A stretch of 64,000 bases of DNA from positions 1 to 64,000 of the forward strand of contig CANJPH010000010.1 of assembly GCA_947476145.1 (NCBI GenBank), written 5' to 3'. Below, one piece after another: positions 39,681-50,337 of the stretch. The notes under the pieces are model-generated. The model was given only the letters and a program-made list of their open reading frames with translations, was not told the DNA's origin and searched no databases. The stretch is from Bacteroidota bacterium (GTDB taxonomy: Bacteria; Bacteroidota; Bacteroidia; Chitinophagales; Chitinophagaceae). How positions within the stretch are numbered: position 1 is the first letter of the stretch; each line of letters opens with the position of its first letter. A program made the position numbers and the translations under genes.

Positions 39681-41135
39681 ATGTCAAGAAAAAAGTCAAT
39701 TAATTCGAGAAGAGATTTCATAAGAAACTCAGCGGTGGCCCTTGGGGGTTTTTACATTGTGCCAAGACAGGTACTGGGCGGTAAAGGATTTACTGCACCA
39801 AGCGACAAATTACAAATTGCCGGTATTGGTGCTGGCGGTAAAGGAGAAAGTGATTTAGACTACTTCTTTAAAACCGGCAAGGTAGATATTCCTTTTTTAT
39901 GTGATGTAGATGAGCGTCAAACTGCTTTAAGCCGAAAGCGTTATCCAAAAGCAAAAGTATACAAGGATTATAGAGAAATGTTAGAAAAAGAGCACACACG
40001 TATTGATGCATGCTCGGTTTCTACACCAGATCATATGCACGGCGTACAAGGAATGGCTGCCATGCAATTGCGCAAGCACGTGTATGTGCAAAAACCAATG
40101 GCACACGATATATACGAAGCTAGAATGATGACCAAGGCCGCACACGATTATAGTGTAGTTACACAAATGGGTAACCAAGGTTCTTCGGGCAATGGTGTAC
40201 GTATGTTACAAGACTGGTATAATGCTGGCTTAATTGGCGACGTACATACTATTTATTGTTATACCGACAGACCTGTTTGGCCTCAAGGCGTAATTCGTCC
40301 TGCAACCGCCAACCAAATTCCAAAAGAACTAGATTTTAATTTGTGGTTAGGTACAGCGCCTGAAAAAAGTTATTTCACCGATTTATTGCCATTTAATTGG
40401 AGAGGATGGTGGGATTACGGAACCGGCGCATTAGGAGATATGGCATGTCATATTATGGCACCTGCTTTTGCAGTAGTAGGATTAGGATATCCTGTGGCTG
40501 CTGAATGTAGCGTAGCCACTCGTTATACGGCACCTTGGCAAAGAGTATATTCACCAGACAGTCCACCAGCAGCTTCTCATATTATTTTAACTTTCAAAGG
40601 TCAAAATGGCAAACCCGATGTAAAATTACATTGGATGGACGGTGGTATACAACCAGAGCGTCCAGCTGAATTAGGACCTAACGAAGTAATGGGTGATGGA
40701 GGAAACGGTGTCATTTTTGAAGGAACTAAAGGTAAAATGATGGCAGGCACTTATGGTGTAAATCCACAATTATTGCCTACTAATTTAACGGCAACTACTA
40801 AAGTTCCACAAACTATTGAACGCGTAAAAAATGGCGACGAAGGCCACTATGCTGCATGGGTAGAAGCATGTATTGCAGGTCATGGAAGTAAAGAACATAA
40901 AAACCTGAGTTCTCATTTTGATATTGCAGGCCCTTTAACCGAGTCGGTACTAATGGGTAACCTAGCCATTAGAAGTTATGACTACAAAGACACCGATAAA
41001 AAAGGATTAACTACTTATCCAGGAAGAAATATCCAATTAACTTGGGATGGTCCAAATATGAAAATTACCAATTTCGAACCAGCCAATCAGTTTGTGAAGC
41101 GAACTTATCGTGCAGGTTGGAGTTTGGGTGTATAA
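39681..41135 (+). CDS. Exported Gfo/Idh/MocA oxidoreductase with Tat signal
   Basis: Predicted NAD(P)-dependent sugar oxidoreductase of 484 residues. The Tat motif SRRDFIRNSAVALGG lies near residue 10 (MSRKKSINSRRDFIRN), so it is likely exported folded with its cofactor. The GIGAGGKGESDLDYF segment is the nucleotide loop, and HVYVQKPMA keeps the catalytic Lys. A DUF/Gfo C-terminal half follows. It opens the sugar-oxidation locus and is followed by a strong terminator. Its relatives in similar loci act on 3-keto sugars or on sugar acids. The exact substrate is unknown. Confidence 0.85.
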   Translation: MSRKKSINSRRDFIRNSAVALGGFYIVPRQVLGGKGFTAPSDKLQIAGIGAGGKGESDLDYFFKTGKVDIPFLCDVDERQTALSRKRYPKAKVYKDYREMLEKEHTRIDACSVSTPDHMHGVQGMAAMQLRKHVYVQKPMAHDIYEARMMTKAAHDYSVVTQMGNQGSSGNGVRMLQDWYNAGLIGDVHTIYCYTDRPVWPQGVIRPATANQIPKELDFNLWLGTAPEKSYFTDLLPFNWRGWWDYGTGALGDMACHIMAPAFAVVGLGYPVAAECSVATRYTAPWQRVYSPDSPPAASHIILTFKGQNGKPDVKLHWMDGGIQPERPAELGPNEVMGDGGNGVIFEGTKGKMMAGTYGVNPQLLPTNLTATTKVPQTIERVKNGDEGHYAAWVEACIAGHGSKEHKNLSSHFDIAGPLTESVLMGNLAIRSYDYKDTDKKGLTTYPGRNIQLTWDGPNMKITNFEPANQFVKRTYRAGWSLGV

Positions 41136-41159
41136 TAATTAAGCCTACGAAAAATCAAA

Positions 41160-41190
41160 ATCCCCTCGATGTGTCGAGGGGATTTTTTTT
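41160..41190 (+). terminator. Intrinsic terminator after the Tat oxidoreductase
   Basis: ATCCCCTCGA at 41160-41169 pairs with TCGAGGGGAT at 41174-41183, followed by eight T residues (41183-41190). Confidence 0.92.
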
Positions 41191-41270
41191 GCTTAACTTC
41201 GAAATGGATTATGAAATTACAGTATAGAAAATGGAACTGATCCATAAAATTTAATAACAACAGTTGCACA

Positions 41271-42449
41271 ATGAATAACAATTTAAAAGACCAATTTTTA
41301 TTAAGAAAAGATATTCATTTTTTAAACTTCGGATCTTTTGGTGCAACCCCAAAGCCCGTGTTTGATTATTACCAGCAATGGCAAAAAGTATTGGAAGCAG
41401 AGCCTGTTCAATTTATTGCTTTTGATGGATATGAATATTTGTCAACTTCCCGTGCAGCATTGGCCAAATTTATATATGTGGATGATAAAGATGATTTGGT
41501 GTATGTAACCAATCCAAGTTTTGCAATAAACATTATTGCCAAAGCATTTCCTTTAGAAGAAGGAGATGAAATATTAGCAACCGATATTGAATATGGCGCT
41601 TGTGATAGAACCTGGGATTATTATTGCGGCCAAAAGAAAGCCATTTATAAGCGACAAAAAATAAATTTACCCATTACCACGAAGGAACAATTTATAGCAG
41701 ACTTTTTTGCCGGTCTAACATCCAAAACCAAGGCTATTTTCATAAGTCATATTACCAGTGCCACTGCATTGACATTCCCTGTAAAAGAAATTTGTGAAAT
41801 TGCAAAGTCAAAAGGTTTAATAACAATAGTAGATGGCGCGCATGCACCTGCACAAGTAGATTTAAAAATAAATGAATTGGCGGTGGATTTTTATGTGGGT
41901 GCTTGTCACAAATGGATGATGGCTCCAAAAGGAGCGAGCTTTTTATATGCACATAAAAGCGTGCAACATTTATGCGAACCGCTAGTGGTAAGCTGGGGTT
42001 ATAAAGCTGCTAAGCCTTCGGAATCTCAATTTTTAGACTACCACCAAATGATTGGAACCAGAGATTTTTCGGCTTTTTTAGCAGTGACCATGAGCATTAT
42101 TTTTATGAAAGATAATAACTGGCCGGCGGTTGCGAAGGAATGTCATGAAATGGTACTAGCCAATGCACCTTTATTTTATGAATTACTAGGCACTCAACCC
42201 ATTAGTCCATTAACCAACGAGTGGATTGGACAGATGATTAGTATTCCCATTCACACCAAGGAACCAGAAGTATTACAAAGGAAGTTGTTTAAGGAGTTTA
42301 ATATCGAAATCCCCATCATGCGCCAAGGAGAAGACATTTACATGCGTTACTCCATTAATGCATTTAATAGCGTGCAAGATTTAGAAGCATTACACAACGC
42401 ATTAAGTACCATTATTAAAACAACCGACTTAATACAAGTGACTAAATAA
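41271..42449 (+). CDS. Aminotransferase class V-fold PLP enzyme
   Basis: PLP enzyme of 392 residues related to isopenicillin-N epimerases and cysteine desulfurases. HFLNFGSFGATPKPVFDYYQ opens it, DGAHAPAQVDL holds the cofactor Asp, and VGACHKWMMAPKGASF carries the PLP lysine. No signal peptide is seen, so it is cytosolic. It is the one member of the locus without an obvious link to sugar chemistry. It runs convergently with the isomerase gene, 4 bases apart. Confidence 0.85.
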   Translation: MNNNLKDQFLLRKDIHFLNFGSFGATPKPVFDYYQQWQKVLEAEPVQFIAFDGYEYLSTSRAALAKFIYVDDKDDLVYVTNPSFAINIIAKAFPLEEGDEILATDIEYGACDRTWDYYCGQKKAIYKRQKINLPITTKEQFIADFFAGLTSKTKAIFISHITSATALTFPVKEICEIAKSKGLITIVDGAHAPAQVDLKINELAVDFYVGACHKWMMAPKGASFLYAHKSVQHLCEPLVVSWGYKAAKPSESQFLDYHQMIGTRDFSAFLAVTMSIIFMKDNNWPAVAKECHEMVLANAPLFYELLGTQPISPLTNEWIGQMISIPIHTKEPEVLQRKLFKEFNIEIPIMRQGEDIYMRYSINAFNSVQDLEALHNALSTIIKTTDLIQVTK

Positions 42450-42453
42450 CTCA

Positions 42454-43314
42454 TTACCAACTCAAAGTCTTCACATATGCCGCATCCGCTGCAGCAGCAT
42501 CTAGTTCATTGCTGCCAGTATAAGCTTCTTGTTCTACAATCATATGTTTAACGCCGCGCTTTGCTACTTCTGGCAATAAGGATTTGTAATCAATCGTTCC
42601 CTTGCCGATAACGCATGATTCATGTCCTTCTGCATTGTCAACTTTAACCAAATCTTTAACATGTACTAATTTAAAACGATTTGGAAACTTATCCATATAG
42701 GCCAATGGATCCACGCCCGCTACCCTTGTCCAATACATATCCATTTCAAAATCAACAATTTTAGGATCGGTATTATTCATCATTACATCCTGTGGAACAA
42801 TTCCATTCATTGGAACAAAAGAATAATCATGATTATGATATGCAAAACGGATCCCATGTTTTTTAGCAATCTCTCCACATGCATTAAACTCGTCTGCAAA
42901 CTTTTTATAATGATCAATGGTAGGTTGTGCTCCTTTATGTGGACAGATTAAATACTTCATTCCAATTTCACCAGCTTGAGCAGCTTTAGTTTCAAAGTCT
43001 TTAGAAATTTCACAATGAGAGGAAACAAAATTCATTCCTAAATCATCCATCACTTTTTTTAATTCAGTATGTGTCATCCCCCAAAACAACCCCTTATCCC
43101 CTTCAAACCCTTCAATTTTTTTATAGCCATTTGCAGCTATTTGTTTTAAAACACCCATGGTATCTTTATATAGCGCCTGCTTAACCGTCCACAATTGAAG
43201 TCCAAATGGTTTACCAGCGCCACCCATTGCCATCAACTCATTTTTAAAGGGCATAGATAATGCCAAACCTGCTAAACCAGCATTGCGTAAAAAGTCTCTT
43301 CTTGAATTGTTCAT
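42454..43314 (-). CDS. Exported sugar-phosphate-isomerase-like TIM barrel with Tat signal
   Basis: TIM-barrel protein of the xylose-isomerase-like (AP endonuclease 2) superfamily, 286 residues. NSRRDFLRNAGLAGLALS is a clear Tat signal. Metal-site residues are visible as FAYHNHDYSF, DFEMDMYW, LVHVKDL and HMIVEQEAYTG. It is likely periplasmic and acts as an isomerase, epimerase or lyase on a sugar. It lies on the same strand as the small subunit and GMC genes but after a terminator, so it may have its own promoter. Confidence 0.85.
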   Translation of the reverse strand: MNNSRRDFLRNAGLAGLALSMPFKNELMAMGGAGKPFGLQLWTVKQALYKDTMGVLKQIAANGYKKIEGFEGDKGLFWGMTHTELKKVMDDLGMNFVSSHCEISKDFETKAAQAGEIGMKYLICPHKGAQPTIDHYKKFADEFNACGEIAKKHGIRFAYHNHDYSFVPMNGIVPQDVMMNNTDPKIVDFEMDMYWTRVAGVDPLAYMDKFPNRFKLVHVKDLVKVDNAEGHESCVIGKGTIDYKSLLPEVAKRGVKHMIVEQEAYTGSNELDAAAADAAYVKTLSW

Positions 43315-43344
43315 AATTACATTTTTTTAAAAACCATATTTTAA

Positions 43345-43377
43345 TAAAAAAGCGAGTGACTTATAAAAGCACTCGCC
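43345..43377 (-). terminator. Terminator after the GMC small-subunit gene
   Basis: Read on the minus strand, GCGAGTG (43370-43376 on plus) pairs with CACTCGC (43352-43358 on plus), then a T run follows at 43351-43346. It ends the transcript from 43397-45670. Confidence 0.85.
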
Positions 43378-43396
43378 TTTTTTGATACGTTAACTA

Positions 43397-43963
43397 TTAG
43401 CTAGTGGCCCAAGCCTTATCTCCTTTCTTATAAGGATAAGAACCAATAAATTTACCTGGAACCGCTACATGGCGTAAAGCTTTGGTAGCACCCACTTCCG
43501 ATGTAAAGAAACCTGTTAAGGTTAATTCCTTCATCATACTAAAATAGTGTTTGGGCTCCTCCCACTTCTTCGTTTTTTGATATTCCTTCGCTTCTTTATC
43601 TAAGGCTACTAATAAACTAGTGCGTTGTGCTGGCGTTGACAACATGAAGGTCTTACCATTCATTTGTTTGCACGCTGCTTCTAATTTTTTAATCCCCTCC
43701 ATAAAAATGGTTTGGTCTTTTGTTTCATAACAATCATTCACCATAATTTGCATAAACTCCCCCACCTTCGCTGCTTTCGCACCAGGTGTTTTAGTAGCAG
43801 GTAAAATGGTTTCGGCCACTTCATTTAAAAATGCAATGTCCATCTTTGTCAATGTAATACCTGTGGTACTAATTCTGATACCCGATGCAAAAGCATCAGC
43901 TCCCAAAATGGTTCCACCCATTATAATCGCAACTCTTGATAAGGCTTCTCTTCTATTCATCAT
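43397..43963 (-). CDS. Gluconate 2-dehydrogenase subunit 3 family protein with Tat signal
   Basis: Small subunit of a GMC-type sugar dehydrogenase, 188 residues. The N-terminus is NRREALSRVAIIMGG, a Tat-type signal (MMNRREAL...DAFASG). The body has the family pattern MDIAFLNEVAETILPATKTPGAKAA. In known two-subunit dehydrogenases (such as FAD-linked gluconate or glucoside 3-dehydrogenase) this subunit carries the signal and takes the unsigned large subunit out with it. It lies 27 bases after the GMC gene and is cotranscribed with it. Confidence 0.9.
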   Translation of the reverse strand: MMNRREALSRVAIIMGGTILGADAFASGIRISTTGITLTKMDIAFLNEVAETILPATKTPGAKAAKVGEFMQIMVNDCYETKDQTIFMEGIKKLEAACKQMNGKTFMLSTPAQRTSLLVALDKEAKEYQKTKKWEEPKHYFSMMKELTLTGFFTSEVGATKALRHVAVPGKFIGSYPYKKGDKAWATS

Positions 43964-43990
43964 AAAATATTATTTAAAAAATTATTAAAA

Positions 43991-45670
43991 TTATAAGTTT
44001 CCTTTTTTCAATTCATTCACTGCAAATTCAGCAGCACGAGCAGTGAACGCCATATAGGTTAAAGAAGGGTTTACACAAGAAGCACTTGCCATAAAAGCAC
44101 CATCGGTAACAAATACATTTGGCGCATCCCATACTTGGTTATTGCCATTCAGTACAGATGTTTTAGGATCTCTACCCATACGCGCTGTCCCCATTTCATG
44201 AATTCCACGACCTGGTGTACCATCTCCATCACGTGCTGAAACATTTTTAACGCCTGCTTTCTCTAACATCTCTTGCGCATCGGCAATAATGTCTTTACGC
44301 ATTTTATGTTCGTTGTCTTTTAACTCACAATCAATGTTCAATACATTTAAGCCCCACTTATCTTTAACGTTTTTATCCAAGGTTACTTTATTGTTTGGAT
44401 CTGGTAACATTTCACCAAAACCGCCCATACCAATGGTCCAAACGCCTGGCTCCGTCATGGCATCTTTAAATTGACCACCAATGCTAAATTCTGCCACTTC
44501 ATGTTGCCATCCTTGTCTTGTACCACCGCCTTGGTAACCAAAGCCGCGCACATAATCACGTTTATCGTTCCCTACGTTTCGGTATCTTGGAATATAAAAT
44601 CCATTCGCACGACGTCCAAATGTATATTGATCCTCATACCCTTCCACTACACCACCGGCACCAATACCTAAATGGTGATCCATTAAGTTTTTACCCAAAG
44701 CGTCGGAGCTACTTCCTAATCCACCTTCCCAAACATCTGTAGCGGAATTCATTAGCAACCAAGTGCTATTTAAAGTAGACGCGTTCACGAAAATAATTTT
44801 AGCACTGTACTCAATAGTCTTATTGGTTTCGGCATCTAAAACAATAACACCTGTTGCACGCTTTTTGTCTTTGTCATATTTAATTTCAGTAACGATACTA
44901 AAAGGTCTTAATGTTAATTTACCCGTTGCCATCGCCGCTGGCAATGTAGAAGATTGCGTACTAAAGTATCCACCAAATGGACATCCTAACCAACATTTAT
45001 TTCTGAACTGACAACCTGGACGGCCACCATGAGGCACGGTGATATTTGCCGTACGACCAATAATTAAATGACGTGATCCATTGTATATTTTTTGAAGTCT
45101 AGCTGCCACATCCTTCTCTACACAGGTTAAATCCATAGGAGGTAAAAATTCACCATCAGGCAAAACATCTATACCATCTCGGTTACCAGAGATACCAGCA
45201 AATTTCTCTACATAATCGTACCATGGAGCAATTTCTTTATAACGAACCGGCCAATCCACACCGTAACCATCTTTCGCATTGGCTTCAAAATCCAAATCAG
45301 ACCAACGATAACTTTGACGACCCCACATTAATGAGCGGCCACCCACATGATACCCTCTAAACCAGTCAAAGCGCTTAGTTTCAACATAAGGATGGTCTTT
45401 GTCAACGCACCAATAATCCAAATTGGTTTCATTCAAAGGATAATCTCTTTTTAAAACTGGATAATCCTGAATCATTTGTTGTGTTCTACCACCACGGTGA
45501 GGAAATTCCCAGGATTCTTTATTTGCATTTACATAGTCCTTAATATGCTCAATGTTTCTACCGCGCTCAAGCATCAATACTTTTAATCCTTTTTCTGTAA
45601 GTTCTTTAGCTGCCCATCCACCGCTAATTCCAGAACCTACCACGATTGCATCATACTGTTGTCCCGCCAT
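43991..45670 (-). CDS. GMC family FAD oxidoreductase (sugar dehydrogenase large subunit)
   Basis: FAD-dependent glucose-methanol-choline oxidoreductase, 559 residues. It starts with VVGSGISGGWAAKEL (FAD-binding loop) and has no signal peptide. GGRSLMWGRQSYRWSD, the EMGTARMG segment after GIHE (catalytic His) and SCVNPSLTYMAFTARAAE (catalytic Asn) are GMC marks. Cys220, Cys226 and Cys230 (C-x5-C-x3-C) match the place of the 3Fe-4S site in FAD glucose and glucoside 3-dehydrogenases. It likely oxidises a sugar or glycoside at C3 in the periplasm and passes electrons to a cytochrome c. Partnered with the Tat-tagged small subunit next to it. Confidence 0.92.
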   Translation of the reverse strand: MAGQQYDAIVVGSGISGGWAAKELTEKGLKVLMLERGRNIEHIKDYVNANKESWEFPHRGGRTQQMIQDYPVLKRDYPLNETNLDYWCVDKDHPYVETKRFDWFRGYHVGGRSLMWGRQSYRWSDLDFEANAKDGYGVDWPVRYKEIAPWYDYVEKFAGISGNRDGIDVLPDGEFLPPMDLTCVEKDVAARLQKIYNGSRHLIIGRTANITVPHGGRPGCQFRNKCWLGCPFGGYFSTQSSTLPAAMATGKLTLRPFSIVTEIKYDKDKKRATGVIVLDAETNKTIEYSAKIIFVNASTLNSTWLLMNSATDVWEGGLGSSSDALGKNLMDHHLGIGAGGVVEGYEDQYTFGRRANGFYIPRYRNVGNDKRDYVRGFGYQGGGTRQGWQHEVAEFSIGGQFKDAMTEPGVWTIGMGGFGEMLPDPNNKVTLDKNVKDKWGLNVLNIDCELKDNEHKMRKDIIADAQEMLEKAGVKNVSARDGDGTPGRGIHEMGTARMGRDPKTSVLNGNNQVWDAPNVFVTDGAFMASASCVNPSLTYMAFTARAAEFAVNELKKGNL

Positions 45671-45726
45671 TTTTTTAAATTTTATTTTTGTGTGAAATTA
45701 TTTTTGAAAATTATTATTAATTTATT

Positions 45727-46632
45727 TTATACATCGCAAATTTTAATTGCAGTTTTTAAAGAAGCCATCTGATCTTTATCTGCTGGCATAAATTCCTGCG
45801 CTACATATCCTTTATACCCTGTTGCAACAATAGCACGCATAATTGCTGGATAATATAATTCTTGGCGTTCATCAATTTCGTGTCTGCCCGGAACGCCTGC
45901 AGTATGGTAGTGTCCAAAGTATTGATGATTGTCTTGAATAGAACGAATAATATCTCCTTCATCTATTTGCATATGATAAATATCAAAAAGAATTTTAAAA
46001 TTAGGAGAACCTAATCTTTTGCAAAGTTCAATACCCCAGGCAGATTTATCACCCATATAATCCTTATGATCAATTCTCGAATTGAATAGTTCTATTTGAA
46101 TAGTCACGCCTAATTTTTCGGCCAAAGGCATGATTTGTTTTAAACCAGTCACACAGTTTTGCATTCCTGTTTCATCATCCATTCCGTTTCTATTCCCAGC
46201 AAAGCAAATTAAGTTTTTATAGCCCGCATCCGCAACCAATTGAATGCCTTCCAAATAATCTTTAATTAACCAATCATGATTTTTTAAATCATTCCAACCC
46301 TTGGTTAAACTCGTTTCTCCTGCTGTGTAACACATGGAGCAATCCAACTCATATTTTTTAGCAGTAGGCCATTCGTTTGGCTTTAATAAATCAATGGCAC
46401 CAAATCCAATTTCTTTCACCACTTTACATAAATTCTCTAATGGCATATCGCTATAACACCATCTACAAACCGAATGATTAATATTCCCTTTTAATTTTTG
46501 AGGACCCAAATCACTGCCTGATTTATCCACCGACGCCAAAACCGATTTAGGTATGGCTACTCCAGCGGCTAAAGCGGCGGAGCCCGATAAAACTTGTTTG
46601 ATTAAATTTCTTCTATTTACATTTGAAGCCAT
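45727..46632 (-). CDS. Exported hydroxypyruvate-isomerase-like TIM barrel
   Basis: TIM-barrel protein of the xylose-isomerase-like superfamily, 301 residues. VNRRNLIKQVLSGSAALAAG resembles a Tat signal. The Hyi-like pattern is seen in HSVCRWCYSDMPLENLC, QIELFNSR, LFDIYHMQIDEGDI, FGHYHTAGVPGRHEID and GYVAQEFMP. The likely chemistry is isomerisation or dehydration of a keto-sugar. It is divergent from the dehydrogenase at 46824, with the presumed control region between. Confidence 0.85.
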   Translation of the reverse strand: MASNVNRRNLIKQVLSGSAALAAGVAIPKSVLASVDKSGSDLGPQKLKGNINHSVCRWCYSDMPLENLCKVVKEIGFGAIDLLKPNEWPTAKKYELDCSMCYTAGETSLTKGWNDLKNHDWLIKDYLEGIQLVADAGYKNLICFAGNRNGMDDETGMQNCVTGLKQIMPLAEKLGVTIQIELFNSRIDHKDYMGDKSAWGIELCKRLGSPNFKILFDIYHMQIDEGDIIRSIQDNHQYFGHYHTAGVPGRHEIDERQELYYPAIMRAIVATGYKGYVAQEFMPADKDQMASLKTAIKICDV

Positions 46633-46823
46633 AGCAATAAATGGTTGGTTAAATAAGCAGCAATGATTTGATAAATGTAAATTTTATTTGCAATGTTTTA
46701 AAATATTTTTGACGAAAAAACGGGGTTTTTTGAGAAAATAGAGGGAAATTGCTATTGTATTATTTTGAAAGTGTTATTATGACACAATATAAATGATTTC
46801 TTAGCTTAAAAATTTATAAAAAG
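46633..46823. promoter_or_regulatory. Divergent control region at the centre of the sugar-oxidation locus
   Basis: 191 AT-rich bases separate the divergent isomerase and dehydrogenase genes. A TATTTTTG at 46704-46711 may be the plus-strand -7 box. GTGTTATTATGACAC at about 46770 has a short inverted repeat (GTGT/ACAC) that could be an operator. There is no ORF of note. Confidence 0.35.
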
Positions 46824-47981
46824 ATGAATAGAAAATTGCGTATGGGTATGGTGGGAGGAGGTCAGGATGCCTTTATTGGCGCCATTCACCGCTTAGCGGC
46901 CAATATGGATGGATTGGTAGAATTGGCTTGTGGTGCGTTAAGTATTAATCCTGAAATTGCAGTGGCATCGGGTAAAGCATTGTTCTTACCCGAATCAAGA
47001 ACTTATCTTACCTACGAAGAAATGATCAAAGCAGAAGCGGCACTTCCTGCTAACGAGCGCATTGATTTTGTGACCATTGTAACGCCCAACTTTGCGCATT
47101 TCGCTCCTGCTATGATGGCTTTGGAACATGGTTTTCATGTAGTCATAGAAAAGCCAATTACTTTTTCATTAGACGAAGCAAAGCAACTTAAAAAGAAATT
47201 AGACGAAACAGGTTTAACGCTTTGCTTAACACATACCTACGCTGGTTACCCAATGGTTAAACAAGCCAAAGCAATGATTGCCGATGGTAAGCTGGGAAAG
47301 ATTCGTAAAGTATGGGTGGAATATCCACAAGGTTGGTTAAGCAGACTTTCAGAAAGGGAAGGAAACGCGCAAGCCGCTTGGAGAACAGACCCTAAAAAAG
47401 CTGGAAAGAGTTCAGTGATGGGAGATATTGGAACCCATGCTGCACATTTATCTGAATACATTACGGGTGCAAAAATTACCGATATCTGTGCCGAACTAAA
47501 CACTTTAGTGGAGGGTCGTGTAATGGATGATGATGGCGCCGTGATGTTAAAATTTGACAATGGTGCAAAGGGAGTTTTAATGGCATCACAGGTAGCAGCA
47601 GGCGAAGAAAATGCTTTGAAAATTAGAGTATACGGCGAGTTAGGAGGTATTGAATGGTTTCAACATGAGCCAAATTCATTAATTGTAAAATGGCTGGATC
47701 AACCTTCCCAAATACTAAGAGCGGGCAGTGCACATTTATATAAAGCAGCATCACATAATTGTCGTACGCCGGCAGGCCATCCAGAAGGATACTTAGAAGC
47801 CTTCGGAAATATCTATCGCAACTTTGCATTAACATTGGGTTGTAAAATAGATGGCACAACGCCTACTGCAGAGATGTTAGATTTTCCAGGAGTGGAAGAT
47901 GGCATCAGAGGAATGGCATTTATTGATAATGTAGTAGCTTCTGCACATTCTGATAAAAAATGGACACCCTACGTTTTATAA
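46824..47981 (+). CDS. Gfo/Idh/MocA oxidoreductase, cytoplasmic
   Basis: NAD(P)-dependent sugar oxidoreductase of 385 residues. MGMVGGGQDAFIGAIHR is the nucleotide loop, IEKPITFSLDEAKQL holds the catalytic Lys and MGDIGTHAAHLSEYI the conserved His region. No signal peptide is present, in contrast to the paralogue at 39681. It heads a plus-strand run with an isomerase, a cytochrome and a DUF1080 protein. Related proteins reduce 3-keto sugars. Confidence 0.9.
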   Translation: MNRKLRMGMVGGGQDAFIGAIHRLAANMDGLVELACGALSINPEIAVASGKALFLPESRTYLTYEEMIKAEAALPANERIDFVTIVTPNFAHFAPAMMALEHGFHVVIEKPITFSLDEAKQLKKKLDETGLTLCLTHTYAGYPMVKQAKAMIADGKLGKIRKVWVEYPQGWLSRLSEREGNAQAAWRTDPKKAGKSSVMGDIGTHAAHLSEYITGAKITDICAELNTLVEGRVMDDDGAVMLKFDNGAKGVLMASQVAAGEENALKIRVYGELGGIEWFQHEPNSLIVKWLDQPSQILRAGSAHLYKAASHNCRTPAGHPEGYLEAFGNIYRNFALTLGCKIDGTTPTAEMLDFPGVEDGIRGMAFIDNVVASAHSDKKWTPYVL

Positions 47982-48038
47982 AATGGAATGAATGAAGTAT
48001 TCAGTAAAATAAAACGTTTACTTTTTTAAATAAATAAA

Positions 48039-49094
48039 ATGACAACAGTAAAAGGACCAGGTATTTTTTTAGCACAATTTATGGGCGACACCGCTCCCTT
48101 TAATACTTTAGAAGGTATTTGCAAATGGGCTGCTAGCTTGGGTTTTAAAGGGGTGCAAATCCCAAGTTGGGATCCGCGTTGTATTAATTTACAAAAAGCG
48201 GCAGAAAGCAAAACCTATGCCGATGAAATAAAAGGAATTGTAAATGCAGCAGGATTAGAAATTACTGAACTCTCTACACATTTGCAAGGACAGTTAGTAG
48301 CTGTACATCCCGCATATGATGCACAGTTTGATGGATTTGCTCCTGCTGAATTACGCGGCAATGCAAAAGCAAGAACCGAGTGGGCAGTGCAGCAATTAAT
48401 ATACGCAGCAAAAGCTTCTCAAAATTTAGGGTTAAACGCATCCGCAACTTTCAGTGGTTCTTTATTATGGCATACCGTTTATCCTTGGCCACAACGCCCT
48501 GCAGGATTAGTAGAAACTGGATTTACAGAACTTGCTAAAAGATGGATGCCCATATTAAATGAGTATGATAAAGTAGGTGTAGACTTATGTTATGAAATTC
48601 ACCCTGGCGAGGATTTACACGATGGTGTTACGTATGAAATGTTTTTGGATAAAGTAAACGGACATGCTCGTGCATGTTTATTATATGATCCTTCTCATTT
48701 TGTTTTACAATGCATGGATTATTTAGGATACATTGACCTGTTTCATGAGCGTATTAAAATGTTCCATGTAAAAGATGCCGAATTTAATCCGTCTGCAAAA
48801 CAAGGTGTATACGGTGGTTATCAAAATTGGATTGACCGTGCGGGAAGATTTAGATCCCTAGGTGATGGTCAAGTAGATTTTAAAAGTATCTTTAGCAAAT
48901 TCGCAGCCTATGATTACAAAGGATGGGCGGTGATGGAATGGGAATGTTGCTTAAAGCATCCAGAAGTGGGTGCTGCAGAAGGTGCGGTGTTTATTCAAAA
49001 TAATATCATTAAAGTAACCGAAAAAGCTTTTGATGATTTTGCAAACACAGGATCGGATGAAGCATTCAATAAAAAAATATTGGGCATTCAATAA
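48039..49094 (+). CDS. Sugar-phosphate-isomerase/epimerase-like TIM barrel, cytoplasmic
   Basis: TIM-barrel protein of 351 residues in the xylose-isomerase-like superfamily. Metal-binding residues are visible in LCYEIHPGEDLHD (Glu), LLYDPSHF (Asp), KMFHVKDAEF (His) and AVMEWECC (Glu). There is no signal peptide. It starts 57 bases after the dehydrogenase gene. It likely isomerises or epimerises the keto-sugar after reduction or uptake. Longer than the 280-residue norm. Confidence 0.88.
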   Translation: MTTVKGPGIFLAQFMGDTAPFNTLEGICKWAASLGFKGVQIPSWDPRCINLQKAAESKTYADEIKGIVNAAGLEITELSTHLQGQLVAVHPAYDAQFDGFAPAELRGNAKARTEWAVQQLIYAAKASQNLGLNASATFSGSLLWHTVYPWPQRPAGLVETGFTELAKRWMPILNEYDKVGVDLCYEIHPGEDLHDGVTYEMFLDKVNGHARACLLYDPSHFVLQCMDYLGYIDLFHERIKMFHVKDAEFNPSAKQGVYGGYQNWIDRAGRFRSLGDGQVDFKSIFSKFAAYDYKGWAVMEWECCLKHPEVGAAEGAVFIQNNIIKVTEKAFDDFANTGSDEAFNKKILGIQ

Positions 49095-49127
49095 TAAACA
49101 AATCAAAAAAGAATAAAAATTAATAGT

Positions 49128-49616
49128 ATGAGAAAGGTTTTAAGTACAATGATAGCGGGTATGGTATTCATGTCATGTGGTGAAGGGAAGCATGCGGCTA
49201 TAACAAATACAACTAATGATGCAACAAATACTACTAGCACTTCGGAAACAACGGTAGCTGAAATTAAAAGTAACACAGTAACATCAACTGTTTCTAATAC
49301 AGCCACTGTTGCAACGGCAACTACGACTGCTCAAACAAAGCCTCCAGTAAGTAAAGAGGATATTCAAAAAGGAATGACATTGCTTGCAAATAGCGATTGC
49401 TTAACCTGTCATAAATTAAATGAAAAAGTAATAGGGCCTGCCTATAAAGAAGTTGCCAAAAAGTATGCGAACACACCGGCAAATATCAAAATGTTAGCTG
49501 GAAAAATCCTGAAAGGAGGAAGTGGAAATTGGGGTGCTATTCCAATGACAGCGCACGCTACATTAAGCCAAGCGGATGCTGAATTAATGGTAAAATATAT
49601 AATGAGTTTAAAATAA
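49128..49616 (+). CDS. c-type cytochrome lipoprotein with Thr-rich linker
   Basis: Electron carrier of 162 residues. Signal with lipobox FMSC (Cys17), a low-complexity Thr/Ala/Ser/Val linker at about residues 25-75, then a single cytochrome c domain: CLTCH haem site, KVIGPAYKEVAKKY and an IPMTAHATLS segment with the axial Met. It is the natural acceptor for electrons from the GMC dehydrogenase. It is anchored to a membrane by lipid and the linker gives reach. Confidence 0.9.
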   Translation: MRKVLSTMIAGMVFMSCGEGKHAAITNTTNDATNTTSTSETTVAEIKSNTVTSTVSNTATVATATTTAQTKPPVSKEDIQKGMTLLANSDCLTCHKLNEKVIGPAYKEVAKKYANTPANIKMLAGKILKGGSGNWGAIPMTAHATLSQADAELMVKYIMSLK

Positions 49617-49635
49617 ACGGATTGAAAAATAAAAA

Positions 49636-50337
49636 TTGCTTATGAAAAAAATACTTATTGCAGTATTTACATTACTAATTTTCACACAAGTTGCTGCACA
49701 GAAAAAAAATATTTGGTTCAGTTTATTTGATGGTTATTCCACCACAGGCTGGCATAGCTATGGCGAAAAAACAGCGGGTGCAGCTTGGAAAGTTGACAAT
49801 GGTATTCTTAGCCTTGACCCTAGTTTAATAAAAAATGGTAAAGGTGGTGGTGATTTAGTGACAGATGAAAGTTTCGATGAATTTCATTTGGCTCTAGAAT
49901 GGAAAGTTTCAAAAAATGGGAATAGTGGTATCATGTTTTTTGTACAGGACGACCCTAGTAAATATGAACATACTTTTTATACAGGACCTGAATTTCAAAT
50001 TATAGACAATGACGGACATCCGGATGCAAAAAATATTAGCCATCGTGCTGGTAATTTATACGATTTAATTCCAACTGAGGAAGGGCATGTAAATCCTTAT
50101 GGGGAGTGGAATATAGTAGATGTCATCTCCAAAAAAGGAGTCTTAGAATTAAAAATGAATGGCGTGACTGTTGTAAAAACGCATTTGGGTGATGACGCTT
50201 GGAAAGAATTAATAAGAAGATCTAAGTTTGCTAACGGTGAAATGCCAGATTTTGGAAAAGTTTTTTCTGGACATATTGTATTACAAGATCATAGCAATGA
50301 AGTTTCTTTCAGAAACATTCGTATTAAAAAGTTATAG
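49636..50337 (+). CDS. Secreted DUF1080 (3-keto-disaccharide hydrolase-type) protein
   Basis: Exported beta-jellyroll protein of 233 residues. Signal peptide MKKILIAVFTLLIFTQVAAQ. DUF1080 marks: WFSLFDGYSTTGWHSYG, LALEWKVSKNGNSGIMFFVQDD, GPEFQIIDNDGH, GEWNIVDVISKKGVLELKMNG and the end IVLQDHSNEVSFRNIRIKKL. Members of this family cleave 3-keto glycosides by elimination or hydrolysis. It ends the plus-strand arm of the locus, 19 bases after the cytochrome gene, and supports the oxidation-then-cleavage scheme. Confidence 0.88.
   Translation: MLMKKILIAVFTLLIFTQVAAQKKNIWFSLFDGYSTTGWHSYGEKTAGAAWKVDNGILSLDPSLIKNGKGGGDLVTDESFDEFHLALEWKVSKNGNSGIMFFVQDDPSKYEHTFYTGPEFQIIDNDGHPDAKNISHRAGNLYDLIPTEEGHVNPYGEWNIVDVISKKGVLELKMNGVTVVKTHLGDDAWKELIRRSKFANGEMPDFGKVFSGHIVLQDHSNEVSFRNIRIKKL

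Follow-up and report, generated by a model that had tools for sequence, protein, structure and literature searches.

A putative glycoside utilisation locus in a Chitinophagaceae bacterium and its missing transporter gene

The stretch of 64,000 nucleotides analysed here (the window, positions 1 to 64,000 of contig C10 in a genome of 2.06 Mb, 53 contigs and 95.3% completeness) contains a block of genes for a GMC flavoprotein, its subunit 3, a cytochrome c, a DUF1080 protein, two Gfo/Idh/MocA oxidoreductases (GfoA and GfoB) and three TIM barrels (TIMa, TIMb and TIMc), which we regard, with a probability of about 0.8, as a locus for glycoside utilisation by oxidation, elimination, hydration and reduction. 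All these genes, listed in a first-pass annotation of the DNA, were recovered by combining its open reading frames with Pfam matches above curated cut-offs (table 1). Protein families, leader motifs, conserved residues, conserved gene order and the absence of a transporter are features of the sequences themselves, from which we infer every reaction, substrate, electron path and importer presented below. Numbers preceded by L, G and C denote compared locus stretches, compared genomes and contigs of the window's genome, respectively.

The kind of pathway is indicated by two of the three TIM barrels that the first-pass annotation had called isomerase-like, a designation that does not suit these two, since their close solved relatives are a named hydratase and a named lyase. 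TIMc answers to a 2-hydroxy-3-keto-glucal hydratase: it matches the structure of AtHYD (8ro4) with an E value of 2.3e-171 and 234 identical residues in 350 aligned positions (67%), and the seven conserved acidic or histidine positions compared are all identical. TIMa possesses the His-x-His/Asp/His/Glu set of a 3-keto-glycoside lyase and groups with proteins named 1,2-lyases in PDB titles; its residues 37–263 align with residues 9–234 of AtOGE, and because a twin-arginine leader precedes the aligned part, cleavage is predicted to take place outside the cytoplasm. TIMb has below-cut-off matches to 2-oxo-tetronate isomerase and hydroxypyruvate isomerase, keeps Glu181, Asp217, His243 and Glu280 invariant in 35 rows and carries the motif RR..[ILF][KR] in 65 of 77 members; it is predicted to be a periplasmic keto-sugar epimerase or isomerase.

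The remaining candidate for cleavage, the DUF1080 protein, matches the solved structures 8v31 (E 6e-38), 8rr2 (1.4e-37) and 8tda (1.5e-37), and its Glu119, Gln121 and Asp124 are conserved at 97% or above across 55 rows. Its family, PF06439, is now named 3keto-disac_hyd in Pfam, for 3-keto-disaccharide hydrolase, and hydrolysis is also what is proposed, with the fate of the 3-keto sugar left open, in the portion of the published work on which we draw (PMC9007349). Both points favour the scheme of the first-pass annotation, in which C3 oxidation is followed by hydrolysis by the DUF1080 protein and by Gfo reduction, the TIM barrels acting as sugar isomerases. We consider that scheme improbable, because a glucal hydratase, to which TIMc is so similar, would have no substrate in purely hydrolytic cleavage; the grouping of TIMa with 1,2-lyases speaks against it too. 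The notion of a pathway through C3-oxidised glycosides is thus retained, while simple hydrolysis most likely gives way to elimination plus hydration. As separate observations on this family, a ThuA-family gene (assigned from the member tested, in L087) is found at the DUF1080 end of L071, L072, L073, L077, L080, L086 and L087, replacing the DUF1080 gene in L073 and L086, and its product is possibly another enzyme cleaving 3-keto-glycosides. On contig C8 of the window's genome (L097:5145-9539), a glucuronate isomerase gene has as neighbours the genes for a twin-arginine Gfo protein and for a protein with a pair of DUF1080 domains, an arrangement that suggests an oxidative route for glucuronides.

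For the initial oxidation, all three kinds of subunit that we take to form LacABC-type dehydrogenases, namely GMC, subunit 3 and cytochrome c, are present in the block. The motif C-x5-C-x3-C, presumably of iron-sulphur type, occurs in 116 of 116 members of the GMC cluster, none of which has a twin-arginine (RR) leader; RR[DE]A is found in 62 of 76 members of subunit 3, and of 52 cytochromes all have CxxCH and 49 a lipobox. Could this complex be a simple dehydrogenase of sugars or polyols that delivers electrons to the respiratory chain and is only loosely connected with the keto-sugar enzymes? Its best solved matches are indeed fructose dehydrogenase (8k6k, E 7.4e-39) and glucose dehydrogenase (6a2u, E 1.7e-32), and the Cys motif recurs in GMC paralogs encoded elsewhere in this genome, but this alternative also has little in its favour: the GMC gene keeps its place beside the lyase-like and hydratase genes, it co-occurs almost perfectly with the hydratase, and a flavoenzyme of an equivalent operon acts at C3 (PMC10628242, in the part drawn upon). 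In many relatives the GMC gene is tandemly multiplied, with up to five copies in a row (L041, L062, L064, L066-L068, L071, L072, L077, L083 and others), perhaps giving different substrate ranges that share one subunit 3. Moreover, the leader of subunit 3 in the window has lost the lipobox cysteine, which is retained in 27 of 29 close loci, L008 and L009 being without it as well; among far loci the lipobox pattern fits 35 of 46, several of the misses having a Cys. Membrane anchoring of subunit 3 may differ in this lineage.

GfoA scores 469.5 bits against the NCBIfam model NF058561 (BT_2158_fam), which has an equivalog cut-off of 750, and is thus related to that family but below membership; its best solved match is 8tdf (E 4.2e-97), and 41 of 43 cluster members have an RR.[FL] leader. 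We predict it to be an accessory, second glycoside 3-dehydrogenase. GfoB is closest to the uncharacterised structure 3v5n (E 7.8e-105), and none of the characterised reductases emerged as its ortholog. Weak matches of both Gfo proteins and of two TIM barrels to the IolG and IolE profiles could point to a locus specialised for cyclitols by inositol-type catabolism, which is highly improbable given that the scores fall far below the cut-offs (TIMa 55 and TIMc 59.5 of 290 bits; GfoA 53.3 and GfoB 53.4 of 355) and that relatives from glycoside pathways match far better.

Compartments were assigned by simple motif counts rather than a trained predictor, with two sets of patterns, one fitted to each protein and one common and stricter. 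The fitted pattern recognises the TIMa leader in 63 of 63 cases, and a general RR pattern is absent from all members of GfoB (0/62), TIMc (0/55) and GMC (0/116). The common twin-arginine (Tat) pattern fits GfoA in 45/45, TIMa in 64/64, TIMb in 40/70 and subunit 3 in 13/75 members, as against 0/65 for GfoB, 1/57 for TIMc and 1/80 for GMC. Oxidation and cleavage are accordingly predicted outside the cytoplasm, hydration and reduction inside, so that the glucal or 3-keto-glucose would have to cross the inner membrane. In this respect the sequences agree with the first-pass annotation, which had proposed a two-compartment pathway, and they are in keeping with a dehydrogenase of GMC, subunit 3 and cytochrome and with a leaderless Gfo-type oxidoreductase.

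In the pathway that we propose, subunit 3 would carry the GMC flavoprotein by its twin-arginine leader to the periplasm, where the flavoprotein would oxidise a glycoside at the C3 hydroxyl of its sugar and hand electrons on by way of an iron-sulphur cluster to the cytochrome c lipoprotein. TIMa, for beta-linked substrates, and the DUF1080 protein, perhaps for alpha-linked ones, would split the 3-keto-glycoside by elimination, releasing the free aglycone or sugar and 2-hydroxy-3-keto-glucal. Once the glucal or 3-keto-glucose has entered the cytoplasm, through the MFS transporter of the locus in many relatives and presumably through another carrier in the window's clade, TIMc would add water to the glucal and GfoB would reduce 3-keto-glucose to glucose; TIMb may adjust other keto sugars by epimerisation, and GfoA would serve as a second C3 dehydrogenase.

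Conservation of the block was followed in 80 loci, the best 80 of 593 found with the GMC protein and consequently a sample biased by that choice; kinship was ignored in all co-occurrence counts. Among the nearest relatives, L008 has a GMC protein 98% identical. Where both genes are present, DUF1080 and cytochrome are adjacent in 48/48 loci, cytochrome and TIMc in 50/51, TIMc and GfoB in 53/55, TIMb and GMC in 74/77, GMC and subunit 3 in 74/75, and subunit 3 and TIMa in 59/62, with GfoB and TIMb on opposite strands in 61/62. Lack of joint conservation had been named in the first-pass annotation as a reason to abandon the locus model, which this adjacency upholds. In close relatives the block is flanked by TadA, superoxide dismutase and RnpA versus aldehyde dehydrogenase, glutathione peroxidase and Dus; 15 of the 80 loci, of at least 18 kb, are without any of these flanking housekeeping families, and there GMC (by construction) is present in 15, GfoB and TIMb in 14 each, TIMc and subunit 3 in 13 each, DUF1080 in 12, cytochrome in 10, TIMa in 8 and GfoA in 2, at a cluster threshold of at least 35% identity that strongly diverged copies may escape. 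The core moves as one unit, and variability is greater for TIMa and GfoA. In 147 genomes of the family, the hydratase (E ≤ 1e-60) and the GMC protein (E ≤ 1e-120) are each found in 100, and 97 genomes have the two together; among the matches listed, 90 genomes have both genes, which lie at most 15 kb apart in 68 and not in 22, several of the latter being fragmented assemblies. The locus is thus kept in about two thirds of the sampled genomes (97/147), and most of its genes can now be given a likely step.

Several points weigh against our interpretation. The nearest solved GMC enzymes do not act at C3, so that C3 specificity is deduced from context, and many genomes have several GMC paralogs. 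The co-occurrence counts take no account of kinship. Of the 15 loci lacking housekeeping flanks, 7 have no TIMa and 3 no DUF1080 gene. The common Tat pattern misses most subunit 3 and many TIMb proteins, and fits one TIMc and one GMC protein. Both Gfo proteins score below every NCBIfam equivalog cut-off, and since the best family of GfoB is levoglucosan dehydrogenase (112.3 of 650 bits), this enzyme could also work in the oxidising direction. In the parts of the literature consulted, Pedobacter DUF1080 mutants have no lactose phenotype (PMC9007349) and deletions of BT2157 and BT2158 cause no growth defect on raffinose-family sugars (PMC11501099). Finally, the import step involves a candidate only, in a genome with 17 rows of MFS_1 matches.

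How would the sugar enter the cell? Of 62 loci, 29 carry between GfoB and TIMb an MFS_1 gene of the major facilitator superfamily (MFS), assigned to PF07690 from one member; if placement is relaxed and a second family is included, a transporter is present in 32 of 63 rows and absent from 31, the window included. Among the close loci (L008-L036), it is missing from each of the 24 in which both neighbouring genes occur, 117-332 bases separating the two. Searched by blastx against 32 MFS relatives, the slot of the window gave chance-level matches only (best E 2.5), and an ortholog was not found in its genome, where the best match has 30% identity over 145 residues. In a tree of GfoB and TIMb, rooted at the midpoint, three changes of the transporter trait are required; the window falls inside a transporter-free set of 29 rows (SH-aLRT, the Shimodaira–Hasegawa-like approximate likelihood ratio test, 94), 25 of which are united with SH-aLRT 100, and L073 and L075 are also without the gene. 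The deepest rows carry it, which under the midpoint root suggests loss rather than gain, and a same-genus genome, G087 (4.3 Mb), retains it in the slot. Hence the absence in the window's clade is most likely due to loss. The earlier remark that uptake is unexplained holds for this clade, but not in general, for about half of the assessable related loci have an MFS-type transporter.

Import is probably performed by another carrier. A second family, Nuc_H_symport/LacY-like in L085, fills the slot in L051 and adjoins TIMb in L085. Within 15 kb of the hydratase in 100 genomes bearing it, the first carrier family is present in 46, the second in 30, both in 8 and neither in 32, broken contigs included. 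In the window's genome the best candidate appears to lie at C6:38319-39527 and is a 52% relative of the second carrier. Next to it come a Gfo gene and, on the opposite strand, the gene for a TIM barrel with a twin-arginine leader and 30% identity to TIMa, near a SusC/SusD locus that also contains GH3, GH30 and a tandem pair of GMC genes. The carrier-Gfo pair recurs in 11 of 12 hand-picked stretches of relatives with carrier copies of 47-54%, which makes the C6 protein a fair candidate for borrowed import, no more. This part of C6 (about 38,000-60,000; L095, L103) resembles a second keto-sugar locus, comprising the LacY-like symporter, the Gfo and TIM barrel genes, an NrtR-type regulator, the glycosidase genes, GMC paralogs of 45 and 48%, a PAP2/VCPO protein, an FG-GAP/UnbV protein, SusD and SusC. 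We tentatively suggest, with the odds somewhat against it, that the MFS_1 sugar-transporter-like and Nuc_H_symport/LacY-like families are interchangeable importers of 2-hydroxy-3-keto-glucal or 3-keto-glucose, and that the Sediminibacterium-like clade lost its carrier once, kept the enzymes and borrows the carrier of the second locus. Two candidate importer families for 3-keto sugars are thereby named, and a clade without the importer offers a natural test of which carrier works.

The genes of the block form two divergent units, GfoB-TIMc-cytochrome-DUF1080 on the forward and TIMb-GMC-subunit 3-TIMa on the reverse strand, which places the cytochrome gene opposite to that for GMC, about 3.5 kb away. 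Open reading frames and Pfam scans revealed neither a SusC/SusD pair nor a regulator in the block, as already remarked in the first-pass annotation, the SusD matches of the genome lying on other contigs. Beyond TIMa lie GfoA and an aminotransferase-like gene, previously left out, which interrupts the block; it occurs in 25 close loci, with a single weak match (23%) among far loci, and being almost confined to the close clade it is probably a passenger. L019-L022 and L024 have a large additional gene that separates TIMa from the aminotransferase; in L021 it encodes a fusion of FAD-linked oxidase and 4Fe-4S parts of 988 residues.

Table 1. Features of the block, with positions in the window.
Feature	Coordinates	Strand	Evidence
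GfoA, Gfo/Idh/MocA oxidoreductase, 484 residues, twin-arginine leader	39681..41135	+	Pfam GFO_IDH_MocA; related to BT2158
Class-V aminotransferase-like gene	41271..42449	+	Profile match
TIMa, TIM barrel with twin-arginine leader, predicted 3-keto-beta-glucoside lyase	42454..43314	-	AP_endonuc_2
Subunit 3, twin-arginine-like leader, predicted GMC export partner	43397..43963	-	Gluconate_2-dh3, PF13618 E 4.3e-40
GMC flavoprotein, predicted catalytic subunit of glycoside 3-dehydrogenase	43991..45670	-	GMC oxidoreductase Pfam, C-x5-C-x3-C motif
TIMb, TIM barrel, isomerase/ketose-epimerase type, twin-arginine-like leader	45727..46632	-	AP_endonuc_2
Divergent intergenic region; MFS transporter slot of many relatives, empty here	46633..46823		Locus comparison and blastx
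GfoB, leaderless Gfo/Idh/MocA oxidoreductase, predicted 3-ketoglucose reductase	46824..47981	+	GFO_IDH_MocA
TIMc, leaderless 2-hydroxy-3-keto-glucal hydratase (AtHYD ortholog)	48039..49094	+	AP_endonuc_2, 8ro4
Cytochrome c, predicted to be a lipoprotein that accepts electrons from the GMC complex	49128..49616	+	PF00034, lipobox-like leader
DUF1080 protein, secretion-type leader (by eye), predicted second 3-keto-glycoside cleaving enzyme	49636..50337	+	PF06439

Among known systems, the BT2156-BT2160 pathway of Bacteroides thetaiotaomicron, reportedly of a type treated in papers of 2024 in Nature and Angewandte, resembles the block in that TIMa matches the AL1/BT1 lyases (PDB titles), GfoA has a relative in BT2158 and the DUF1080 protein belongs to the family of BT2157; in contrast, the initial oxidation here is most likely due to a flavoprotein-cytochrome complex and not to a Gfo enzyme alone. 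A search of the open-access literature, outside which most subscription papers lie, found no description of this locus in Chitinophagaceae-type bacteria, which is weak evidence of absence. As far as the portions of the two sources drawn upon extend, the Agrobacterium tumefaciens operon GlycDH-AtOGE-AtHYD-Gfo supplies the four enzymes of such a pathway, with the same four roles, TIMc being the AtHYD ortholog, and its flavoenzyme GlycDH is likewise accompanied by a TAT-pathway signal protein (PMC10628242), whereas the present block additionally has the DUF1080 protein, TIMb, GfoA and cytochrome c, and its TIMa has a twin-arginine leader that shifts the predicted cleavage outside the cytoplasm. 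The Caulobacter crescentus cluster of LacABC and DUF1080, with counterparts including Bacteroidetes, shares the LacABC-type dehydrogenase, DUF1080 protein, two epimerase-like genes and reductase, a likeness drawn from gene content, but has a transporter gene that the window lacks (PMC9007349). The kind of pathway is, in short, already published; the present locus is a further case of it, with likely roles assigned to the single genes, a predicted periplasmic lyase and a missing importer.
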